Assembly (NCBI GenBank): GCA_003250395.1
Contig: QKGM01000007.1
Span: forward strand, 1-64,000
From: Bacteroidota bacterium
Lineage (GTDB): Bacteria; Bacteroidota; Bacteroidia; Bacteroidales; TTA-H9
Direction: 5' to 3'
Length of the DNA: 64,000 nucleotides
Shown: positions 17,270 through 32,790 of the stretch, in pieces
Layout of the letters: every line of letters begins with the position of its first letter
Numbering within the stretch: the stretch's first letter is position 1
The notes under the pieces: model-generated
Database searches by the model: none
Told to the model about the DNA's origin: nothing
What the model saw: the letters and a program-made list of their open reading frames with translations, nothing else
Position numbers and translations under genes: made by a program

Positions 17270-19765
17270 GTGAATACTAATGATCAAAGGCCTTTCCTTG
17301 ATGATTCAAGAGAAGAAACTGTAGATATAAAACAGTTGCTGTTCAAGTTTTTACGGTACTGGTATTTTTTTGCCATTACAGTATTTGTAGCCCTTGTTAT
17401 TGCCTTCCTATTTAATAAATATACAAAGCCGATATATGAAGTCTCCAGTACAGTGCTGGTACAGGATACGAAAAAGGGCGGTATGGCTGACGTTCAGTCG
17501 TTGTTGGGAGTAGGATTCGGAAATAGCCAGCAAAATTTGCAGAATGAAATAGGGGTACTTAACTCAAACTCTCTTGTGGTAAGTGCTGTTAAATCGTTAA
17601 ATCAGAAAGTCAGTTATTTTGGTGAGGAGAATTTTATTACCTCGGAGTTATATAAGACCAACCCCATCACAGTAATCCCCGATACAACACATCCTCAGCC
17701 TGCCAATATTAAGTTTTATGTTGTGATAAAGAATACCAGGCAGTTTGAAATTCAGGCTGACGGTGAAAATGCAAAGCTTTACGATTTCAGTTTGGATAAG
17801 TTTTATAGAGAAAATGATCAGGAAGTTATAGTCGACAGGATTAATCTGAACAAAACCTATTCTTTTGGTGAGACGATAGAAACTAAATATCTTAAGTTCA
17901 AGGTTTTATTAAATTATAACTATAATGCCGATAAACATCTGAATAAGAAGTTGTTTTTTCAGTTTAATGATCTTCCTGGTCAGGTTCAATTATTTAAAAA
18001 CTACAAAATTGAGCCGATCAACAGGGAAGCCTCTATTTTAGAAATCAAGCTTAAGGGAAACTCGGTGCAGAAATCAGTCGATTTTCTGAATACCCTAACC
18101 AGCGAATACCTTGCAAGGGGGCTCAACAAAAAGAATATGATCGCGATCAAGACCATTGAATTTATAGACAGGGAATTGATAGGAATACGGGATAGTCTGA
18201 CAATGGCTGAAATACAACTCGAGAATTTCAGGCGTGATAACCAGATTATGCAGCTGGATGTGGAGGCTCAACAAGTTTTTGAGTATATGAAGGATCTTGA
18301 TAAACAAAAGTCAGAGCTTTTAATGAAAGGTAAGTACTACCAATATCTCAAGACTTATATCGAAGAGAAAAATGATATAGATGATTTGGTAGTACCGTCG
18401 AGCATGGGTGTTGAAGATCCTTTGCTCACTCAATTATTGGGTGACCTGACGCGTTTGCATGAAGAAAAGGCTGCGTTGTTGCTTACTTCAACAAGAAAGA
18501 ATCCGGCTATCGGACAGATTGAATCAAAGATCAGAAATGCCAAGGCTAATCTTGTTGAGAACATTAAAAACATTGTCAATACTTCCAACATTGCTATACA
18601 CGACATAGAAGAACGGATTGCGGCCCAAACGGCCAAGATTTCTAATCTGCCTTCCAGCCAGAGAGAGTTACTTTCTGTTGAGCGGAAGTTTGATCTCAAT
18701 AACAATCTTTATACATTCCTGCTACAGCGCAGGGCTGAAGCCCAGATAACGAAAGCATCAAATTTGCCTGACAACGAAATTATAGATCAGGCGTTGTCGG
18801 AAGGCAAAAAACCCGTATATCCCAAAAAGAGTCTTAATTATCTGATAGCATTTTTGTTAGGGCTTATTCTTCCGGCCGTATATATTTACCTTAAGGACTA
18901 TCTGAACGACAAGATTATGGATCGGAGTGACGTCGAGCGGGCTTCCAATTATCCTCTTGTTGGAGTGATTATGCACAATAACCGGGATTCAAAACTTGTC
19001 GTGGCAGAATCTCCAAAGTCATCTATTGCTGAGTCTTTTCGTTCCGTCAGAACAAACCTGCTCTACATGACAAAGGGGAGTGAAAAGCAGACGATACTGG
19101 TAACGAGTGATATGGTGGCTGCAGGAAAAACGTTTATTTCCACTAATCTTGCCACAATATATGCACTGAATGGTCGCAGAACACTGCTGATCGGTTTCGA
19201 CCTTCGCAAACCAAAGATATTTCAGGAGTTTGGCCTGTCGAATACAGAAGGTGCCAGTAGCTATCTGATCGGGAAAAGCCAGCTGAATAAAATTATTCAT
19301 AAAACTTTTGTCGAAAACCTCGATGTGTTGTTGGCTGGTCCGGTACCACCTAACCCTGCAGAACTGATCGCATCAGAGAAAGCAGATGAATTGTTCAGGG
19401 AACTCAAGGAGATATACGACTATATCATCATTGATACACCACCGATAGGTCTGGTTACAGATGCCATATTACTGATGAAATACTCTGATGTTAACATGTA
19501 TGTTGTTCGTCAGGGGTATACGAATAAAAGAATTTTTGCCCAGGTTTCTAAGGATCTTGAATCCAGAGGGCTAACCAATCTCAGGATATTAATCAACGAT
19601 GTCAAAGTATCGAGGGAGGGCTATGGCTACGGCTATGGCTATGGCTACGGCTATGGTTATGGTTACGGTTATGGTTACGGCTATGGCTATGGTTATGGCT
19701 ATTATTCCGACGAGAATGAACAGCAAAAGGAGGGATTTCTTCGTAAGATTTTTAAGAAATCATAA
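17270..19765 (+). CDS. Wzc-like polysaccharide co-polymerase / tyrosine autokinase with (GY)14 C-terminal tail
   Basis: GTG start; Wzz-type N-terminus, Walker-like TSDMVAAGKTFISTNLA, FDLRKPK, YDYIIIDTPPIG, Tyr-rich tail. Confidence 0.93.
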   Translation: MNTNDQRPFLDDSREETVDIKQLLFKFLRYWYFFAITVFVALVIAFLFNKYTKPIYEVSSTVLVQDTKKGGMADVQSLLGVGFGNSQQNLQNEIGVLNSNSLVVSAVKSLNQKVSYFGEENFITSELYKTNPITVIPDTTHPQPANIKFYVVIKNTRQFEIQADGENAKLYDFSLDKFYRENDQEVIVDRINLNKTYSFGETIETKYLKFKVLLNYNYNADKHLNKKLFFQFNDLPGQVQLFKNYKIEPINREASILEIKLKGNSVQKSVDFLNTLTSEYLARGLNKKNMIAIKTIEFIDRELIGIRDSLTMAEIQLENFRRDNQIMQLDVEAQQVFEYMKDLDKQKSELLMKGKYYQYLKTYIEEKNDIDDLVVPSSMGVEDPLLTQLLGDLTRLHEEKAALLLTSTRKNPAIGQIESKIRNAKANLVENIKNIVNTSNIAIHDIEERIAAQTAKISNLPSSQRELLSVERKFDLNNNLYTFLLQRRAEAQITKASNLPDNEIIDQALSEGKKPVYPKKSLNYLIAFLLGLILPAVYIYLKDYLNDKIMDRSDVERASNYPLVGVIMHNNRDSKLVVAESPKSSIAESFRSVRTNLLYMTKGSEKQTILVTSDMVAAGKTFISTNLATIYALNGRRTLLIGFDLRKPKIFQEFGLSNTEGASSYLIGKSQLNKIIHKTFVENLDVLLAGPVPPNPAELIASEKADELFRELKEIYDYIIIDTPPIGLVTDAILLMKYSDVNMYVVRQGYTNKRIFAQVSKDLESRGLTNLRILINDVKVSREGYGYGYGYGYGYGYGYGYGYGYGYGYGYYSDENEQQKEGFLRKIFKKS

Positions 19766-23007: not shown

Positions 23008-23210
23008 GGGTTACAACGTTTAGAAAGCAAAATTAGTGATTTATCCTCTAATCAGGTTTACATGATTTATCATTCTACTGCTCTCTCTCTTTATCGTGTT
23101 ATTTAAACAGAATATAAATATTTAAATTGTGGTATCCATTTGCTTAATTAATTGTTGAGAGTTTCTAAAATTTATACATTTACGATGAATAAACTTAAAC
23201 AATATATACC

Positions 23211-24215
23211 ATGAAGGAAGACAAAAATCTATCAGACAGTCCGCAACAGGATGAGAATAATGCAAGACGTGGATTTTTAAAGAAACTTGGACTGGTGGTA
23301 GGGGCAGGAGCTGCGGTGACCGCCGGAGCAGTGTATTTGGGATATGACCATGAAAAGAAGAAAAATCCCGATGGGAAGAAAGTCAGAGTTTTAACAGCCG
23401 ACGGTCAACTTATGGAAGTAAGTGAGGCCGAGCTAATTCAGGCTGAGAATCAAACTGCTGATGAGGAAAGTGAACTTCAGCGTCGTGGCCGTGAAGGTTT
23501 GCCCGGTAAGCATTGGGTGATGGTAATCGATTTATCGAAATGCAGGAACGCGCGTATGTGCATGGCTGCCTGTCAGGGAGCTCATCACCTGCGGCCAGAA
23601 CAGCATCATATAAATGTACTGAGGATGCAGGATGCTGAACATACCGAGCCTTATTTTATGCCCAAGCCTTGCTTTCATTGCGACAACCCGCCTTGTACTA
23701 AGGTCTGTCCGGTAGACGCGACATTCAAGCGCCAGGATGGTATCGTTCTGATTGATAATCAACGTTGCATTGGCTGCAGGTTCTGTATTGCTGCCTGTCC
23801 ATACTCAGCAAGAGTATTTAACTGGATAGAGCCGCTCAAGTCTGAAGAGGATAAAGATCTGCCTTATGATGTTGAGCTGAATGTACCACAGAGGAAAGGA
23901 ACTATCTCAAAATGCCTGTTTAGTGCAGATTGTTTGAGAAAAGGTGAATTACCTTATTGTGTAAGGGCATGCCCCAATGGTGTTTATTACTTCGGGGACC
24001 TGAATGAGGATACCGTTACCAATGGTACTACAAGAGAAACTGTACGCTTTAGTGAACTAATCAGGAAGAATGGTGGTTATACAGTACTTGAAGAACTTGG
24101 TACCAAGCCTCAGGTTTATTACCTGCCTCCAAAAAACAGGTTGTTTCCCTATCAATATGAGGGTAAAACTACTATTGATCCTGATGACAGCCGCGTTGGC
24201 GGAGGAAGAGGGTAA
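23211..24215 (+). CDS. 4Fe-4S ferredoxin-type subunit (NrfC/PsrB-like) with Tat-type signal
   Basis: ARRGFLKKLGLVVGAGAAVTAGAVY; Cys motifs CFHCDNPPCTKVC and CIGCRFCIAACP, plus two variant motifs. Confidence 0.88.
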   Translation: MKEDKNLSDSPQQDENNARRGFLKKLGLVVGAGAAVTAGAVYLGYDHEKKKNPDGKKVRVLTADGQLMEVSEAELIQAENQTADEESELQRRGREGLPGKHWVMVIDLSKCRNARMCMAACQGAHHLRPEQHHINVLRMQDAEHTEPYFMPKPCFHCDNPPCTKVCPVDATFKRQDGIVLIDNQRCIGCRFCIAACPYSARVFNWIEPLKSEEDKDLPYDVELNVPQRKGTISKCLFSADCLRKGELPYCVRACPNGVYYFGDLNEDTVTNGTTRETVRFSELIRKNGGYTVLEELGTKPQVYYLPPKNRLFPYQYEGKTTIDPDDSRVGGGRG

Positions 24216-24261
24216 TATCTACCGGTCTTGATAAATTGACTTTTTTGAAATTTACCTGCCT

Positions 24262-25605
24262 ATGTCGGTTAATAAACTTTCGACTGAAGAGAGCTACAAA
24301 ACGCTCAACAAAATAGAGACGGATCTTCTTCGCCCGATGACCCATCATAAAGGTCTGGAATTGTGGATTCTATTCCTGGTTTTATTTTTTATCATTGGAG
24401 GATACGCTTATTTCATCCAGCTTCGTGATGGGTTAGGCGTAACGGCAATGAGGGATTACACTTCGTGGGGGATGTATATCGGGAACTTCGTCTTTTTTGT
24501 AGCGGCGAGCCTTATCGGTATGTTCATCAGTTCGGTTCTTGGCTTGCTGAAAATAAAATGGATTACACCAATTACCAGAATTGCGGAAATGATAGCACTG
24601 GCTTTTGCAATGTGGGCAGGCATTGTTATTGTAATTGATATGGGGCGTCCGGACAGATTGCTCAATGTTTTTCTCCACGGAAGGTTTCAATCACCCATTC
24701 TCTGGGATGTAACAGTAGTATCTACTTATGTAGCTATCAGCTTTCTGTTGTTGTTTTTGCCTCTTATTCCCGATGCGGCAGTTATCCGCCGTCGCTTACC
24801 CGGTCTTCCAAAATGGCAGATGAAGATATATGATCTTCTTTATCTGGGTTGGGAGGCTCGACCAGGGCAATACCTTATTATAAAAAAGTCGATGCGGATT
24901 CTGGCAATATTGATTATCCCGGTGGCTCTTGCGATCCATACTGTTACTTCCTGGCTTTTTGCATCCACACTACGTGCAGGATGGGATACAGCTATTTTTG
25001 GTCCCTATTTTGTTAGTGGAGCATTTGTTGCTGGTGTCGCTGCTGTTATTATCGCAATGTATTTTTTCAGGTATAATTATAAGCTGGGCGATTATATCAC
25101 CGACTTTCATTTCAACAGGATGGGACAGGTGCTTGTTTTGGTTTCAGCCATTTATATTTACTTCAATTTGAATGAGTACTTTGTTCCGGCGTACAAAATG
25201 AGGATAGCCGAGAAAGTACACCTGGTTGAAATGTTCACTGGTCACTGGTCTACTCTTTTCTGGTTTACCCAGATTATCTGCCTGGTGATACCAGCGTTTT
25301 TATTGATTTTTAAAAAGATGCGACGTCCTTCTATTATGCTGTGGCTATCAGTGCTTGTACTGCTAGGTGCCTGGTTGAAACGTTTCCTTATTGTTGTTCC
25401 GGTTCAGCAACATCCTTATCTGCCTATCCAGAATGTACCTGACAGCTTCCATCATTACATTCCGACAGGTATTGAAATAACCCTGACCATTCTGCCAATT
25501 GTTGGTGTTCTGCTAATTATTACCATTATTGCCAAACTTTTTCCGGTAATATCTGTTTGGGAGGTTGCCCATGAAAAGGGCGTTGATGAATCAATAATCA
25601 AATAA
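24262..25605 (+). CDS. NrfD/PsrC-like membrane quinone-interacting subunit
   Basis: 447 aa multi-TM; GLELWILFLVLFFIIGGYAYFIQLRDGLGVT, WGMYIGNFVFFVAASLIGMFISSVL, MGRPDRLLNVFLHGRFQSPILWDV. Confidence 0.88.
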   Translation: MSVNKLSTEESYKTLNKIETDLLRPMTHHKGLELWILFLVLFFIIGGYAYFIQLRDGLGVTAMRDYTSWGMYIGNFVFFVAASLIGMFISSVLGLLKIKWITPITRIAEMIALAFAMWAGIVIVIDMGRPDRLLNVFLHGRFQSPILWDVTVVSTYVAISFLLLFLPLIPDAAVIRRRLPGLPKWQMKIYDLLYLGWEARPGQYLIIKKSMRILAILIIPVALAIHTVTSWLFASTLRAGWDTAIFGPYFVSGAFVAGVAAVIIAMYFFRYNYKLGDYITDFHFNRMGQVLVLVSAIYIYFNLNEYFVPAYKMRIAEKVHLVEMFTGHWSTLFWFTQIICLVIPAFLLIFKKMRRPSIMLWLSVLVLLGAWLKRFLIVVPVQQHPYLPIQNVPDSFHHYIPTGIEITLTILPIVGVLLIITIIAKLFPVISVWEVAHEKGVDESIIK

Positions 25606-25618
25606 TTATATACCCGAA

Positions 25619-26569
25619 ATGATGAAATCAAACTCAAAAGTTTTGATAGCGATATATTTTTTGTTGAGCGCGACTGTAGTAATGGGACAGGCAACTGAAC
25701 CTTGGGTGGTACCTGCAGCAAAAAAGAGTGTTAAAAATCCTGTTGCTGTTTCTACTTCTGTTATTGAAAAAGGGAAGAGTCTCTACATGGCAAACTGTAA
25801 ATCATGCCATGGGGATCCAGGTAAAGGAAACGGGTTGCCGTTGGTTCCTAAACCAACTGACCCAGCAAGCGATAAATATCAGGCTCAGACTGATGGTGAA
25901 ATGTTCTACAAGATGCAGAATGGTCGCGGCGCTATGCCAAAATTTGCCGAGGTAATCCCAGATAATGATAAATGGGCCATTATTCATTTTGTACGTACGT
26001 TCAGTAAAAAAAAAAATAGTGCCGATGCAGGTAAGATAATGCCCGATACTTTACCTGCTGGTTCATCCTTTACCTCAACTTCTTTGAATGGAAAACCGAT
26101 CACACTCAAACTAAAGTTTAATGAACCAGATTCCACTTTGATTGCTACGGTTAGTACATTAAATGAAGATGGTGATTTACTGCCAGTTGAAGGAGTACCT
26201 GTTGGTTTTTTTCTGAAGCGTTATTTTGGAAGTCTTCCTGTTGGAGAGGAAATTGGTCGTACTGATAAAGATGGTCGTATTGAGGTTGCGGTTCCCCGCA
26301 ACCTGCCAGGTGATACATCGGGATTGCTTCATTTTATTGCCAGGGTCACTGATCCGGAGGTGTATGGTATTGCCATGGACTCAATTGGTGCTTCATGCGG
26401 AAAACCATTGGTAATAGTTAATATTACCGAGGAAAGAACTTTATGGGGACGTTCCCGTGTAGCTCCTCTTTACATTATTATCACCTTCTTTGGAGCCTTG
26501 GCGGCAGTATGGGGTACAATGGGGTATGTTGTGTCAAATGTCCTGAAAATAGCCCAAAAGGACGTTTAA
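25619..26569 (+). CDS. Membrane-anchored monoheme cytochrome c with Ig-like middle region
   Basis: Signal peptide; CKSCHG with downstream AMPKFAE Met ligand; beta-rich region; C-terminal TM APLYIIITFFGALAAVWGTMGYVVSNVL. Confidence 0.85.
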   Translation: MMKSNSKVLIAIYFLLSATVVMGQATEPWVVPAAKKSVKNPVAVSTSVIEKGKSLYMANCKSCHGDPGKGNGLPLVPKPTDPASDKYQAQTDGEMFYKMQNGRGAMPKFAEVIPDNDKWAIIHFVRTFSKKKNSADAGKIMPDTLPAGSSFTSTSLNGKPITLKLKFNEPDSTLIATVSTLNEDGDLLPVEGVPVGFFLKRYFGSLPVGEEIGRTDKDGRIEVAVPRNLPGDTSGLLHFIARVTDPEVYGIAMDSIGASCGKPLVIVNITEERTLWGRSRVAPLYIIITFFGALAAVWGTMGYVVSNVLKIAQKDV

Positions 26570-26687: not shown

Positions 26688-29093
26688 ATGGTTGATTCAA
26701 AAAACATGCCTTGTTTTCATTGTGGCGAGGCATGTGGTACTGTGCCTGTTATTTACGACGGGAAATATTTCTGTTGTAATGGCTGTAAGGCAGTATACCA
26801 ATTGCTCAACCAGAATAATATGCAACAGTATTATACGATCATGGAAACCCCGGGGGTTAAATTTACACCGGAACACCGTCCTTTGAAAAAATCGTTCTCA
26901 TGGTTGAAAAATGAAGAACTTATTGAAAAACTAATCGATTTCAAGCAAGATAGTATTTACAGGGCAACCTTTTATATCCCTGCAATCCACTGTAGTAGTT
27001 GTATCTGGCTGTTGGAGAATCTTGAAAGACTTGATGACGGGATAAGTCGATCAGTCGTCAATTTTGTTAAAAAGGAGGTTACTATTACCTGGAATAATGA
27101 GAAAACAACACTTCAGCAGATTGTTCAATTACTGGCAGATTTGAACTATGAGCCCGAGATTACGCTTGAAGCCATGAGCCGAAGTGGTAAACGGAAAGAG
27201 AACCGACGAATTATATACCAGATTGGAGTAGCCGGCTTTGCCTTCTCAAATATAATGTTGCTGAGTCTGCCAGATTATTTAGCTCACAGAGAAGGGCTTG
27301 AACTTTCATTCCGCAATTTCTTCGGATGGATAAATCTTTTACTGGTTCTTCCTGTCGTTATTTATTCGGCCAGAGATTATTATGAATCAGCAATTGGTAA
27401 CTTAAGAAAGGGTGTCCTGAACCTTGATGTTCCTATCGCCATAGGTATAATTACCCTGTTTATTCAAAGTATCTACGAGGTGTCGGCTGCTATAAGCCCC
27501 GGATATTTTGATTCATTGGCCGGATTTGTTTTTTTTCTGCTTATTGGACGTTGGTATCAGGGCAGAACCTACCATGCTTTGTCATTTGAACGTGATTACA
27601 AATCCTATTTCCCGGTTGCAGTTACAAGGTTAAAGGGAGGTAACGAGGAGTCGGTGTTATTGAAGGACATTGCAAAAGGGGATTTGCTTTTAATACATAA
27701 CCTGGAGCTTATTCCTTCTGATGGCATATTAATTGATGGTGAGGCTATTATAAACTATTCTTTTGTGACCGGCGAATCAATACCTGTTAGTAAACGAGCA
27801 GGAGACGAGGTCTATGCCGGAGGCCGTCAAACCGGAGGCGCAATTGTTATTGAGATTAAAGAAGAGGTAGAGCAAAGTAAATTAACAAGGCTTTGGAACC
27901 AGAGAAATGATGATCATCCCAAACAGGGGATCGTTCGAATGGTAGACTTTGTTAGCCGACGTTTCACCCTGGGACTGCTTTTAGTTGCTTTATTAACCCT
28001 TATCGGATGGCTTCTTATAGATCCAGGTCGCGCAATGATTGCTTTCGTCTCTGTACTGATTGTTGCATGTCCATGCGCATTAGCCCTTACTCTTCCTTTT
28101 ACTTACGGAACCACTATGCAGATTTTTGGTCGACGTGGACTTTTTCTTAGGGAGTCAATGGTTGTTGAAAGTCTGGCAAATATTGATGTTGTTGTTTTTG
28201 ATAAAACTGGGACCCTGACTCTTGCCGACGATCGCAAGGTGCATTGGGAGGGAAGCCCATTAACAGGTACTGAGCGACAACTTATCAGATCTTTGTGTCG
28301 TAATTCAGTCCATCCATTGAGTCAGGCAGTAACCGGATACCTGACTGATTCAGAAGTTCTGCCTGTTATTAATTTCAGAGAGCTTTCAGCGCGGGGAATT
28401 TTAGGAATTGTAAAAGATGTGGAGGTAAGAGCTGGGTCGTCTACATGGCTTGAAATTCCTGTTGATGAATTGATAAACAGAAATGTTTCGGCTGTTCATA
28501 TTATGTTTGACGGGTATTACCGTGGTTTTTTTTCTATTGGTAACAGCTACAGGACCGGGCTTGACTTAATGATCCCTCACCTGAAAAAAATGGGACCAAT
28601 ACATGTAATCAGTGGCGATAATGATGCTGAGAGGGCAACACTACAGCATTTACTGGGAAGAGATACGTCCTTGTCATTCGATATGTCGCCTTCCGATAAG
28701 CTTCACTATATAAGGAATTTAACAAAGAACGGTTTGAAACCACTCATGATTGGTGATGGCCTCAATGATGCAGGAGCTTTAAAAGAAGCATATGCAGGAA
28801 TTTCTCTTGCAGATGATGTTTATCATTTTTCACCTGCCAGTGATGCTATCATTGAAGCTAAATCTTTTAACAGACTGGTAGATTTTCTTTATCTATCAAA
28901 AAGAGCCCTTTCTATCGTTAGAATGAGTTTCTTTATTTCCATTACATACAATGTCATAGGATTGGCATTTGCCATCCGTGGTGTACTATCTCCGGTTATA
29001 GCGGCCATTTTAATGCCTTTAAGCTCTGTTACTGTGGTAGTATTTGTTACCGGAATGGTTCATCTGGTTGCCCGACGGTTTGTTCTTAAATAG
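26688..29093 (+). CDS. ccoI: Cu-transporting P-type ATPase, cbb3 assembly type (CcoI/FixI)
   Basis: N-terminal CFHCGEACG/CCNGCKAVYQLL, HCSSCIW metal-binding, VACPCALAL, DKTGTLT, GDGLNDAGAL; next to ccoS/ccoN. Confidence 0.93.
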   Translation: MVDSKNMPCFHCGEACGTVPVIYDGKYFCCNGCKAVYQLLNQNNMQQYYTIMETPGVKFTPEHRPLKKSFSWLKNEELIEKLIDFKQDSIYRATFYIPAIHCSSCIWLLENLERLDDGISRSVVNFVKKEVTITWNNEKTTLQQIVQLLADLNYEPEITLEAMSRSGKRKENRRIIYQIGVAGFAFSNIMLLSLPDYLAHREGLELSFRNFFGWINLLLVLPVVIYSARDYYESAIGNLRKGVLNLDVPIAIGIITLFIQSIYEVSAAISPGYFDSLAGFVFFLLIGRWYQGRTYHALSFERDYKSYFPVAVTRLKGGNEESVLLKDIAKGDLLLIHNLELIPSDGILIDGEAIINYSFVTGESIPVSKRAGDEVYAGGRQTGGAIVIEIKEEVEQSKLTRLWNQRNDDHPKQGIVRMVDFVSRRFTLGLLLVALLTLIGWLLIDPGRAMIAFVSVLIVACPCALALTLPFTYGTTMQIFGRRGLFLRESMVVESLANIDVVVFDKTGTLTLADDRKVHWEGSPLTGTERQLIRSLCRNSVHPLSQAVTGYLTDSEVLPVINFRELSARGILGIVKDVEVRAGSSTWLEIPVDELINRNVSAVHIMFDGYYRGFFSIGNSYRTGLDLMIPHLKKMGPIHVISGDNDAERATLQHLLGRDTSLSFDMSPSDKLHYIRNLTKNGLKPLMIGDGLNDAGALKEAYAGISLADDVYHFSPASDAIIEAKSFNRLVDFLYLSKRALSIVRMSFFISITYNVIGLAFAIRGVLSPVIAAILMPLSSVTVVVFVTGMVHLVARRFVLK

Positions 29094-29253: not shown

Positions 29254-29463
29254 ATGAAAGTAATATTTATCTTGGTTGCGGCCAGTTTATTAGTTGCTTC
29301 AGGATTTCTGGTCGCTTTCCTTTGGGCGGTCCGTAATGGTCAGTATGATGATGATTATACCCCATCGGTAAGGATACTCTTTGATGAAGATAAAGTTCCA
29401 GAAAATAATATAGATATTGAGCAATCAGATGATGATTCTTTAGCAGAAAGTGATAATACATAA
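29254..29463 (+). CDS. ccoS: cbb3-type cytochrome oxidase assembly protein CcoS
   Basis: 69 aa; single TM then AFLWAVRNGQYDDDYTPSVRILFDE. Confidence 0.93.
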   Translation: MKVIFILVAASLLVASGFLVAFLWAVRNGQYDDDYTPSVRILFDEDKVPENNIDIEQSDDDSLAESDNT

Positions 29464-29481: not shown

Positions 29482-31977
29482 ATGCAACCAGAAATTTTTT
29501 CCTACGACAATAAAATCGTAAAGTATTTTACCTATGCCACAATCATATGGGGAGTAGTAGGCATGATCGTAGGGTTATTAATCGCCCTCCAGCTGGCTTT
29601 TCCGTATTTTAATTTTGATATAAGTTTCACGACATATGGTCGGCTTCGTCCCATTCATACAAATGCCGTGATATTCGCTTTCGTGGGGAACGCCATTTTT
29701 ACAGGCGTATATTATTCAATGCAGCGGCTATTGAAGACCAGGATGTATAGTGATTTGCTTAGCTATATTCACTTCTGGGGATGGCAGTTAATCATCGTTT
29801 TAGCAGCATTGACACTTGCCCTTGGATTTACCGCGGGCAAAGAGTATGCCGAGCTTGAGTGGCCTGTGGACCTGCTGATAGCTGTTGTTTGGATTGTTTT
29901 TGGTTGGAATATGTTCGGAACTATTGCGAGACGCAGAGTCCAACACCTCTATGTTGCTATCTGGTTTTATATTGCTTCATGGGTAGCTGTTACCATACTT
30001 CATGTGTTTAACTCTGTTGAATTACCCGTTTCGTTATTTAAAAGTTATCCGGTATATGCAGGTGTCCAGGATGCTTTGGTACAATGGTGGTATGGACATA
30101 ATGCTGTGGCTTTCTTCCTTACTACCCCTTTCCTTGGACTGATGTATTATTTTCTGCCAAAGGCCGCTAACAGACCTATCTATTCTTATAAACTTTCTAT
30201 CATTCATTTCTGGACGCTGATCTTCATTTATATCTGGTCGGGACCCCACCATTTGCTATATCAGGCTTTACCTGATTGGGCTCAAACCATTGGTGTGATT
30301 TTTTCGGTGATGCTCATTGCTCCGTCATGGGGTGGAATGATAAACGGCTTGCTTACTCTGCGCGGTGTCTGGGATAAGGTTCGTGAAACCCCCATGCTCA
30401 AGTTTATGGCTGTGGCGGTAACAGCTTATGGAATGGTGACTTTTGAAGGCCCTATGCTTGCCATCAAGACGGTCAATGGCCTCGTGCACTTTACCGACTG
30501 GATTATCGCGCATGTTCATATTGGCGGATTAGGCTGGAATGGATTTCTTACATTCGCTATGCTTTATTGGCTGATTCCCGTTTTATGGCGTACAAAACTG
30601 TATTCTAATAAACTGGCAAATATCCATTTTTGGCTAGGCACTCTTGGAGTCTTGTTTTATGCTATTCCGCTCTATTGGGCGGCCATCACGCAGGGGCTGA
30701 TGTGGAAGGAGTTTACCCCGGAGGGTTTTCTGCGTTACCCAAACTTTCTTGAAACCGTCGTACAGATTATCCCCATGTATGTTACCCGAATTGCTGGTGG
30801 AGTATTATACATCGTTGGCGTCGTTCTAATGGTTTATAATCTTGTTAAAACGATCAAACAGGGTTCTTTTGTTGCCTCGGAGGAGGTTAGTGCAATGCCG
30901 CTTGAGAAAATCAACAGACACCGTATTTTGGGTGAAACCATTCATGGATGGGTTGAACGAAAACCAGTACAGTTTACCTTCTGGGTTGCCGTTGCTTTAC
31001 TTTTTGGAAGTATAGTCAGTATTGTTCCGATGTTTGTGGTAAAGACCAATATTCCTACTATTAGTAGTGTTAAACCCTATTCCCCCCTTGAGTTACAAGG
31101 TCGTGATATTTATATCCGGGAAGGGTGTTATACTTGTCATAGTCAAATGGTCAGACCTTTCCGCAGTGAAACAGAACGTTATGGTGAATATAGCAAGTCG
31201 GGCGAATTTGTGTACGATCATCCTTTTCAGTGGGGTTCACGCCGAATGGGGCCAGATCTTGCCCGCACTGGTGTTGTAGAAGGTAAAATGTATAAGACTG
31301 CTGCATGGCATTTTAACCATTTTTATAATCCACAAGAGATGAACGCTGAAAGCCGGATGCCTGCTTACCCATGGCTGATTGCCAATAAAATGAACATAAG
31401 TTCTACACCGGCTAAAATTAATGCAATGATTATGCTTGGTGTTCCTTACCCCGAGGGATTCGCAGAAAGATCTGTTGATAGTCTTATGAATCAGGCCCGA
31501 ATGATTGCCGATGACCTGAAGCAATCAGGAATTGAAGTTGAACCTGATCGAGAAGTTATTGCTATGATTGCTTATATGCACCGATTAGGGAGGGATATCA
31601 GCGAACAAAAACCTGTGAAAACAGGATTGGTCATGAAAACTGATGTTCCTGGAATTCTTACTGATCAGGAGTCGGTTGATCTCGGAGCGCAGTTGTTTAA
31701 AGCCAACTGTGCTGCCTGCCACGGAGTATCAGGTGAAGGTAATGCAATTGGTCCTAATCTTACCGATAATTATTGGATACATGGGGGAGCACCTGATTCA
31801 GTTTATAATACTATCTATAATGGAGTGCCGGCAAAAGGAATGCAGGCATGGAAAGATTTGCTCACAAAAGATCAGTTACAACAGGTTTTCAGCTTCTCGA
31901 TGAAGATAAAGGGTACAAATATGAGTGGGGGAAGGGCTCCTCAGGGTCTGGAAGAGAAACCTCAAAAAATGGAATAG
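29482..31977 (+). CDS. ccoN: Fused cbb3 cytochrome c oxidase CcoN-CcoO with extra C-terminal cytochrome c domain
   Basis: 831 aa: heme-copper oxidase core (WWYGHNAVAFFLTTPFLGLMYYFLPK, HVHIGGLGWNG), CcoO CYTCHSQMVRPFRSE, then an additional CAACHGVSGEGNAIGPNLTDNYWIHGG. Confidence 0.95.
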   Translation: MQPEIFSYDNKIVKYFTYATIIWGVVGMIVGLLIALQLAFPYFNFDISFTTYGRLRPIHTNAVIFAFVGNAIFTGVYYSMQRLLKTRMYSDLLSYIHFWGWQLIIVLAALTLALGFTAGKEYAELEWPVDLLIAVVWIVFGWNMFGTIARRRVQHLYVAIWFYIASWVAVTILHVFNSVELPVSLFKSYPVYAGVQDALVQWWYGHNAVAFFLTTPFLGLMYYFLPKAANRPIYSYKLSIIHFWTLIFIYIWSGPHHLLYQALPDWAQTIGVIFSVMLIAPSWGGMINGLLTLRGVWDKVRETPMLKFMAVAVTAYGMVTFEGPMLAIKTVNGLVHFTDWIIAHVHIGGLGWNGFLTFAMLYWLIPVLWRTKLYSNKLANIHFWLGTLGVLFYAIPLYWAAITQGLMWKEFTPEGFLRYPNFLETVVQIIPMYVTRIAGGVLYIVGVVLMVYNLVKTIKQGSFVASEEVSAMPLEKINRHRILGETIHGWVERKPVQFTFWVAVALLFGSIVSIVPMFVVKTNIPTISSVKPYSPLELQGRDIYIREGCYTCHSQMVRPFRSETERYGEYSKSGEFVYDHPFQWGSRRMGPDLARTGVVEGKMYKTAAWHFNHFYNPQEMNAESRMPAYPWLIANKMNISSTPAKINAMIMLGVPYPEGFAERSVDSLMNQARMIADDLKQSGIEVEPDREVIAMIAYMHRLGRDISEQKPVKTGLVMKTDVPGILTDQESVDLGAQLFKANCAACHGVSGEGNAIGPNLTDNYWIHGGAPDSVYNTIYNGVPAKGMQAWKDLLTKDQLQQVFSFSMKIKGTNMSGGRAPQGLEEKPQKME

Positions 31978-31979
31978 AT

Positions 31980-32171
31980 ATGCAGTTTTTTCAACAACTT
32001 TTCAATCAGTCGGAATCAGGTTGGCTTTGGGCAATAGGCTCACTCCTTCTGTTTATTCTGTTTTTTACAGTAATGATTTGTATTGTAATGGGTCTCAGCA
32101 AAAGTTTTGTTGATCAGATGAAAAAAGCTCCGTTGCTTGAGGAGGAGGACAGAAATCTAAATATAGAATAA
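31980..32171 (+). CDS. CcoQ-like small membrane subunit
   Basis: 63 aa ORF from ATG 31980: MQFFQQLFNQSESGWLWAIGSLLLFILFFTVMICIVMGLSKSFVDQMKKAPLLEEEDRNLNIE; located between ccoNO and ccoP. Confidence 0.75.
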   Translation: MQFFQQLFNQSESGWLWAIGSLLLFILFFTVMICIVMGLSKSFVDQMKKAPLLEEEDRNLNIE

Positions 32172-32181
32172 AACATATACT

Positions 32182-32790
32182 ATGAATTACGAAGGAATCA
32201 ATAAAGAAAAGAGTATGCAATCCGAAGAGGATTCTACTGTTACTGATAAAGAGAAAAGCCTTCTGTTGCCTCACGAATTCGATGGCATCCGTGAACTCGA
32301 TAATCCACCCCCCAGATGGTTAATGTATATACTTTATATCACAGTCTTTTTTTCTGCATTATACTGGGTTCATTACCATACTTTCAGGCAAGGCCCAACA
32401 CAGGATGAAGAATACCTGGCTGAGATGGCTGCTTCAGTTGCTGCCAGAGATGCTGATTCATCTGTTGTTAAGCTGGCTCAACTCACTGATCAGGTCAACC
32501 TTGATGCCGGTAAGAAGATATATAATGAGAAACTGTGTTATTCGTGCCATGGTATGGCTGGTGAGGGGAATGCTGTCGGACCAAATCTTACGGATGACTA
32601 TTGGATACATGGTTCATCTATCGACAAAATTGTCGAAGTATTAATAAACGGTGTTCCGGCCAAGGGAATGGCTCCTTTCAAGGATCAACTGACTAAAGAA
32701 CAGATTCTTCAGGTAGCCAGCTATGTTCTTAGCCTTCAAGGAACAAACCCTCCCAATGCTAAAGCTCCCCAGGGTGAAAAGGCTGGTTAG
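32182..32790 (+). CDS. ccoP: cbb3 oxidase subunit CcoP (single c-heme form)
   Basis: EFDGIRELDNPPPRWLMYILYITVFFSALYWVHYH N-terminal signature; one CYSCHG motif. Confidence 0.93.
   Translation: MNYEGINKEKSMQSEEDSTVTDKEKSLLLPHEFDGIRELDNPPPRWLMYILYITVFFSALYWVHYHTFRQGPTQDEEYLAEMAASVAARDADSSVVKLAQLTDQVNLDAGKKIYNEKLCYSCHGMAGEGNAVGPNLTDDYWIHGSSIDKIVEVLINGVPAKGMAPFKDQLTKEQILQVASYVLSLQGTNPPNAKAPQGEKAG

Follow-up and report, generated by a model that had tools for sequence, protein, structure and literature searches.

The locus analysed here raises the question of how quinol electrons reach a heme-copper oxidase in bacteria that carry neither a cytochrome bc1 complex nor alternative complex III (ACIII), as many oxidase-bearing genomes of the order lack both and the quinol-to-oxidase route therefore had no recognised answer. 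In the window, which is the whole stretch of 64,000 nucleotides analysed from contig QKGM01000007.1, a small set of Fe-S, NrfD-type and cytochrome c genes was noticed beside cbb3 oxidase genes, and the sequence-only reading had proposed it as a stripped-down replacement of complex III. Homology, conservation and genomic distribution indicate that the product of the three genes is very probably a menaquinol:cytochrome c oxidoreductase of the membrane, akin to ACIII but minimal, which takes the complex III role where ACIII and bc1 are absent.

Gene Layout of the Locus

The three-gene module and the cbb3 genes occupy the same strand in the following arrangement.

23155..23183, + strand: promoter-like TTG-N17-TACATTTA ahead of the three-gene module (weak, consensus match only)
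23211..24215, + strand: Fe-S subunit gene (ORF call, 334 aa)
24262..25605, + strand: gene of the NrfD-type integral membrane subunit (ORF call, 447 aa)
25619..26569, + strand: cytochrome c subunit gene (ORF call, 316 aa)
26688..29093, + strand: ccoI, copper P-type ATPase for cbb3 assembly (ORF and family matches)
29254..29463, + strand: ccoS-like small membrane protein of 69 aa (assigned by its position and by conservation in relatives)
29482..31977, + strand: ccoNO fusion carrying one more heme c domain at its C-terminus (CXXCH at 549 and 743)
31980..32171, + strand: ccoQ-like small membrane protein, 63 aa
32182..32790, + strand: ccoP with a single CXXCH

The intergenic gaps measure 46 bp between the Fe-S and NrfD genes, 13 bp between the NrfD and cytochrome c genes, and 118 bp between the cytochrome c gene and ccoI. 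The described composition of the set (a Tat-signal Fe-S protein, an NrfD protein and a membrane-anchored monoheme cytochrome c) was recovered in these reading frames, and its position directly upstream of ccoI-S-NO-Q-P on the same strand was borne out by the ORF and family checks. The claims that neither a molybdenum catalytic subunit nor a full Act set lies beside the module and that the window is free of bc1 genes also held, with no molybdopterin, ActA, ActD or ActF genes accompanying the module at the locus. Within the oxidase operon (29482-32790), the usual second heme c domain of CcoP sits instead at the C-terminus of the CcoNO fusion, and CcoP keeps one CXXCH. Further upstream (17270-19765), the window encodes a Wzc-type polysaccharide co-polymerase/tyrosine kinase in which a long Gly-Tyr repeat precedes the C-terminus.

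Features of the Three Subunits

The NrfD subunit (447 aa) contains about 10 hydrophobic segments, matches PF03916 (E 2.9e-32) and is ActC-like by sequence and predicted fold. Only ActC of ACIII was matched in a PDB sequence search (E 1e-38 to 1e-45), and a profile built from ten NrfD sequences retrieved ActC, then ActF, and nothing else from the PDB. The predicted structure (mean pLDDT 74, pTM 0.79) gave the same picture in Foldseek, with four ActC structures on top at a TM-score of about 0.8, followed by ActF, and PsrC far below. In the NrfD tree, the oxidase-linked clade forms one side of a branch with an SH-aLRT of 99, apart from ActC (99).

The quinone-site, gate and half-channel residues listed for R. 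marinus ActC (PMC8076601) were located in the alignment. Ser164 and Asp169 of the quinone site and Arg395 of the gate are retained as S144, D149 and R374, and ActC His139 is replaced by Asp126, a position at which an acid is also found in PsrC (W. succinogenes), HybB, DsrP and QrcD (PMC8076601); D126, S144, D149 and R374 are all invariant in ten relatives. Three of the four named site residues are thus kept or conservatively replaced, the exception being the quinol-site Asp253, which is Leu232 in the module protein. ActC Glu394 corresponds to Lys373, an invariant lysine. Kept or conservatively replaced positions number 8 of 13 in the N-side half-channel and 4 of 6 in the P-side half-channel, the lost residues including H97, T100, R114, T125, D197 and Y323, so the ion path is only partly retained.

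The Fe-S subunit exhibits a Tat-type start (RRGFLKK), four Cys motifs and no heme motif, and aligns to the C-terminal domain of ActB and to PsrB. Motifs II and III are complete; motif I reads C-x2-A-x2-C, with Ala114 in place of the second cysteine, and motif IV reads C-x2-S, with Ser238 in place of the second cysteine. Both substitutions are nearly fixed in the oxidase-linked clade, with Ala in 37 of 38 sequences (Val in one) at the motif I position and Ser in all 39 at the motif IV position, whereas the motif IV cysteine is kept in the more distant module clades (29/29 and 8/8); in R. marinus ActB, it is motif III that carries a Thr. In PsrB/DmsB-type proteins, motifs II and III hold the membrane-proximal cluster pair, while motifs I and IV hold the distal pair. 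With motifs II and III complete and I and IV altered, the wire near the quinol therefore appears unbroken, and the changes fall on the distal pair, the one expected to face a molybdenum subunit.

The cytochrome c subunit carries one CXXCH at residue 60 and hydrophobic segments at both ends, and is divided into a signal peptide, a class I monoheme domain, a beta-sandwich (about 152-259) and a C-terminal membrane helix (about 284-313). A GRGxMPxF motif with M106 is invariant in its relatives. The heme domain is closest to c552 and ActE, but the module protein has an added beta-sandwich and C-terminal helix; the predicted structure is of modest confidence (pTM 0.40).

Probable Replacement of Complex III across the Order

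Searches with the NrfD profile and for COX1, cytochrome b and ActD covered 295 genomes of the same order. Module proteins were taken at 480 bits or more, with the addition of a single partial match cut by the end of its contig, against about 195-250 bits for canonical ActC. An aa3 or cbb3 oxidase was detected in 98 genomes, 60 of them with the module, 44 with ACIII, 11 with both and 5 with neither; these five are all congeners of module carriers, so assembly gaps are likely. Module and oxidase co-occur strongly over the 295 genomes (OR 50, p 2e-29), and module and ACIII exclude each other among the 98 oxidase genomes (OR 0.034, p 1.3e-11), kinship being handled in these statistics by family collapse only: the 54 collapsed families comprise 26 with the module only, 17 with ACIII only, 11 with both and none with neither (p 5e-7). 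Among the oxidase genomes, 42 from 31 families carry the module but neither ACIII nor any form of cytochrome b, a count in which all genomes with long cytochrome b frames (900-aa, weak PF00033) were scored as having cytochrome b. Six module genomes gave no aa3/cbb3 COX1 match, several of them being fragmented or incomplete. By its distribution over genomes, the three-gene module stands in for complex III, and a unit replacing ACIII in 31 families would close the gap in electron supply.

Gene Neighbourhood of the Module

Conservation of the neighbourhood across relatives had been proposed as a check, and the same three-gene order of Fe-S, NrfD and cytochrome c was found in dozens of genomes, together with oxidase linkage in relatives; because the order is kept so widely, the set is not a chance arrangement. 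At 26 of 40 module loci in the same order, COX1 lies within 8 kb, always downstream and on the same strand, while no oxidase was found nearby at the other 14, some of which are cut by contig ends. The linked oxidase is aa3-type at 22 of the 26 loci and cbb3 at five, one locus having both, and the aa3-type genes by the module include SCO, CoxA, CoxC, CoxB with heme c, and UbiA. The idea that the module feeds the cbb3 oxidase is therefore supported as regards oxidase operon linkage but not as regards a specific partner, as most relatives pair the module with an aa3-type oxidase. The cbb3-linked loci (L074-L076, L087 and L102) are spread over at least three separate regions of the NrfD tree, namely the window clade, L087 and L102, so cbb3 linkage of the module probably arose more than once. 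Any recognised redox neighbour of the module in the oxidase-linked clade is an oxidase, and no constant fourth gene accompanies the three-gene unit in the loci examined. A missing catalytic subunit encoded nearby in relatives, which would have spoken against the proposed role, was looked for beside the oxidase-linked modules and not found.

Electron Donors in the Window's Own Lineage

The window genome (G000) is 76% complete in 56 contigs, and its congener G423 is 97% complete. The genome-wide search for bc1 and Act genes that had been suggested detected no PF00033 cytochrome b, Rieske protein or ActD in either genome, and NapC/NrfH proteins gave sub-threshold matches only, with none above cut-off in the two. 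The sole other NrfD protein of the window genome is PsrC-like and belongs to a PsrABC-type locus (L001 22-3568), which is followed by two small YeeE/YedE-like membrane proteins. A bd quinol oxidase is present in both genomes, so oxygen respiration need not use the three-gene module.

Sister genera in the same family (G314 and G519) carry a Rieske protein with an 11-heme cytochrome b complex, and NapC/NrfH-like proteins. At loci L156 (1586-4701) and L157 (21-3138), the Rieske gene adjoins a cytochrome b of 913 or 923 aa to which 11 heme c motifs are fused; a gene whose product has a molybdopterin-reductase-like Cys motif lies nearby, and similar long cytochrome b frames were observed in about 19 genomes of the order.

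Proposed Electron Route and Alternative Explanations

In the proposed mechanism, menaquinol would bind at the periplasmic side of the ActC-like NrfD subunit and be oxidised there. The Tat-exported ferredoxin subunit would relay the electrons over its complete proximal Fe-S pair (motifs II and III) to the one heme, with His/Met ligands, of the anchored cytochrome c. This heme would in turn reduce the heme c domains of the oxidase, which is cbb3 in the window or aa3-type in relatives, so that the module would perform the complex III step in Bacteroidales-type genomes without ACIII and bc1. Formation of the complex, the quinone type, the electron path and its direction are inferred from homology, conservation and distribution. 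The stripped-down complex III reading gains strong comparative support from the ActC-like NrfD, the oxidase operon linkage and the ACIII replacement pattern, and from the finding of neither ACIII nor bc1 in the window genome or its congener and of no missing catalytic subunit beside the module in oxidase-linked relatives. A more far-reaching version, to which we give slightly less than an even chance, is that the module represents a self-sufficient third class of complex III, with three subunits, a single NrfD, neither ActF nor heme b, and an Fe-S wire with two three-Cys sites; it would then be the sole quinol:cytochrome c oxidoreductase in many Bacteroidales-type aerobes or microaerobes, and ACIII may have grown by added subunits from a core similar to it.

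Among the alternatives, the module might be a general periplasmic donor that passes quinol electrons to cytochrome c for peroxide, nitrite, nitrous oxide or outer-membrane routes, with the oxidase as one customer. The 14 loci away from an oxidase fit such a role, as does the company of DUF5777 barrels, EB_dh heme-b proteins or multiheme cytochromes kept by the distant clade and the second subfamily; within the order, however, the occurrence of the module follows that of oxidases very closely, with the module replacing ACIII, and the oxidase is the recognised redox neighbour in the oxidase-linked clade, which makes this reading unlikely, if still a serious one. It is very unlikely that the three genes are the remnant or one part of a larger complex with its large subunits (ActA, the molybdopterin-like part of ActB, ActD, ActF or a DsrMK-type partner) encoded at other sites: of 66 module genomes, 55 lack ActD, and the same unit recurs in the loci examined without a constant fourth gene. 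In favour of this reading, NCBIfam scores the proteins highest as DsrO and DsrP, though under the family thresholds, and the window genome is just 76% complete.

Electron flow in the opposite direction, from periplasmic cytochrome c into menaquinone as in Qrc or Nhc, has a precedent in Qrc, which runs the same Fe-S/NrfD pair that way (PMC6303296). The NrfD subunit is nevertheless ActC-like and not QrcD-like, the class I His/Met monoheme cytochrome and the oxidase linkage favour quinol oxidation, and most of these oxidases would be left with no recognised source of electrons if the module were taken away, so that reversal is also very unlikely. Least probable of all is an accessory role in oxidase assembly or redox balance with no quinol oxidation of its own; the module does stand upstream of ccoI, an assembly factor, but its quinol-site residues, Fe-S motifs II and III and heme ligands are invariant or nearly so, and its distribution is that of a replacement for ACIII.

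Comparison with Known Systems

The module shares with ACIII (ActABCDEF; 6BTM, 6F0K, 6LOD, 8K9E) an ActC-type NrfD by sequence and fold, an Fe-S subunit resembling the C-terminal domain of ActB, a monoheme domain resembling ActE, the same proposed reaction and adjoining aa3 oxidase genes. It differs from ACIII in its NrfD, which forms a separate well-supported clade from ActC, and in its Cys losses, which fall in motifs I and IV and not, as the Thr of R. marinus ActB does, in motif III. Four further features of ACIII are missing, namely the molybdopterin-like domain of ActB, the ActA pentaheme protein (none beside the module), ActD (none in G000 or G423) and ActF (none in G000). The best reading is that the three-gene module is related to ACIII but stands outside it. 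The bc1 complex would share the overall reaction and the chain position, whereas the module has no homologous cytochrome b or Rieske protein and no Q-cycle hemes b.

Closest to the module among earlier proposals is the cable-bacteria 'candidate ACIII' (TMH1-DsrOhPh-tetraheme; PMC11976967, PMC13047784), likewise an Fe-S, NrfD and cytochrome c unit proposed as complex III where none is present. That unit has a tetraheme cytochrome and a DsrP-type NrfD, whereas a monoheme anchored cytochrome and an ActC-like NrfD are found here, and the present module is additionally backed by the genome-wide replacement pattern and the oxidase operon linkage. The Fe-S/NrfD dimeric redox module is known to operate with varied partners (PMC6303296), and an NrfCD pair without a molybdenum subunit was called a quinol:acceptor reductase in a 2013 genome paper (PMC3534657). 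QrcABCD, NrfCD and PsrBC have this quinone-reactive pair in common with the module, whose partners are instead a monoheme cytochrome c and a heme-copper oxidase, with no Mo-type or multiheme catalytic subunit. In the literature searched, outside which most subscription papers lay, no description of a monoheme, oxidase-linked, ACIII-replacing unit was found. The module is also a very small natural system in which to ask whether NrfD alone couples quinol oxidation to proton movement.

The DsrJOP part of DsrMKJOP likewise combines cytochrome c, Fe-S and NrfD proteins, and NCBIfam places the Fe-S subunit closest to DsrO (178.6 of the 200 bits needed) and the NrfD subunit closest to DsrP (121.2 of the 350 bits needed), both below cut-off. 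No DsrMK was recognised beside the module, which has one heme against three, and membership of DsrMKJOP was rejected on the sub-threshold scores, the heme count, and the PDB and fold results. Recognition of the module would correct its likely mis-annotation as DsrO/DsrP or NrfCD. A plasmid search with the module DNA returned only short DsrO-like matches in Halomicrobium (NC_013201.1 64288-64445), in haloarchaeal proteins annotated as DsrO; the automatic DsrO label may thus cover non-Dsr proteins.

Related Modules outside the Order

Related modules were observed in other orders of the class (L116-L140), some in genomes also carrying ACIII, and often with the heme domain split from an Ig-like membrane protein. 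Their neighbours include DUF5777 outer-membrane-type barrels, EB_dh heme-b proteins, and a CRP/Fnr regulator or Moco genes, and these modules possibly serve another electron route. A second NrfD subfamily (L141, L142 and L146-L150; about 310-375 bits) keeps the same Fe-S and NrfD order and, at some loci, adjoins multiheme c-type cytochromes resembling the MtrC/c3 families, or a DUF5777 barrel.
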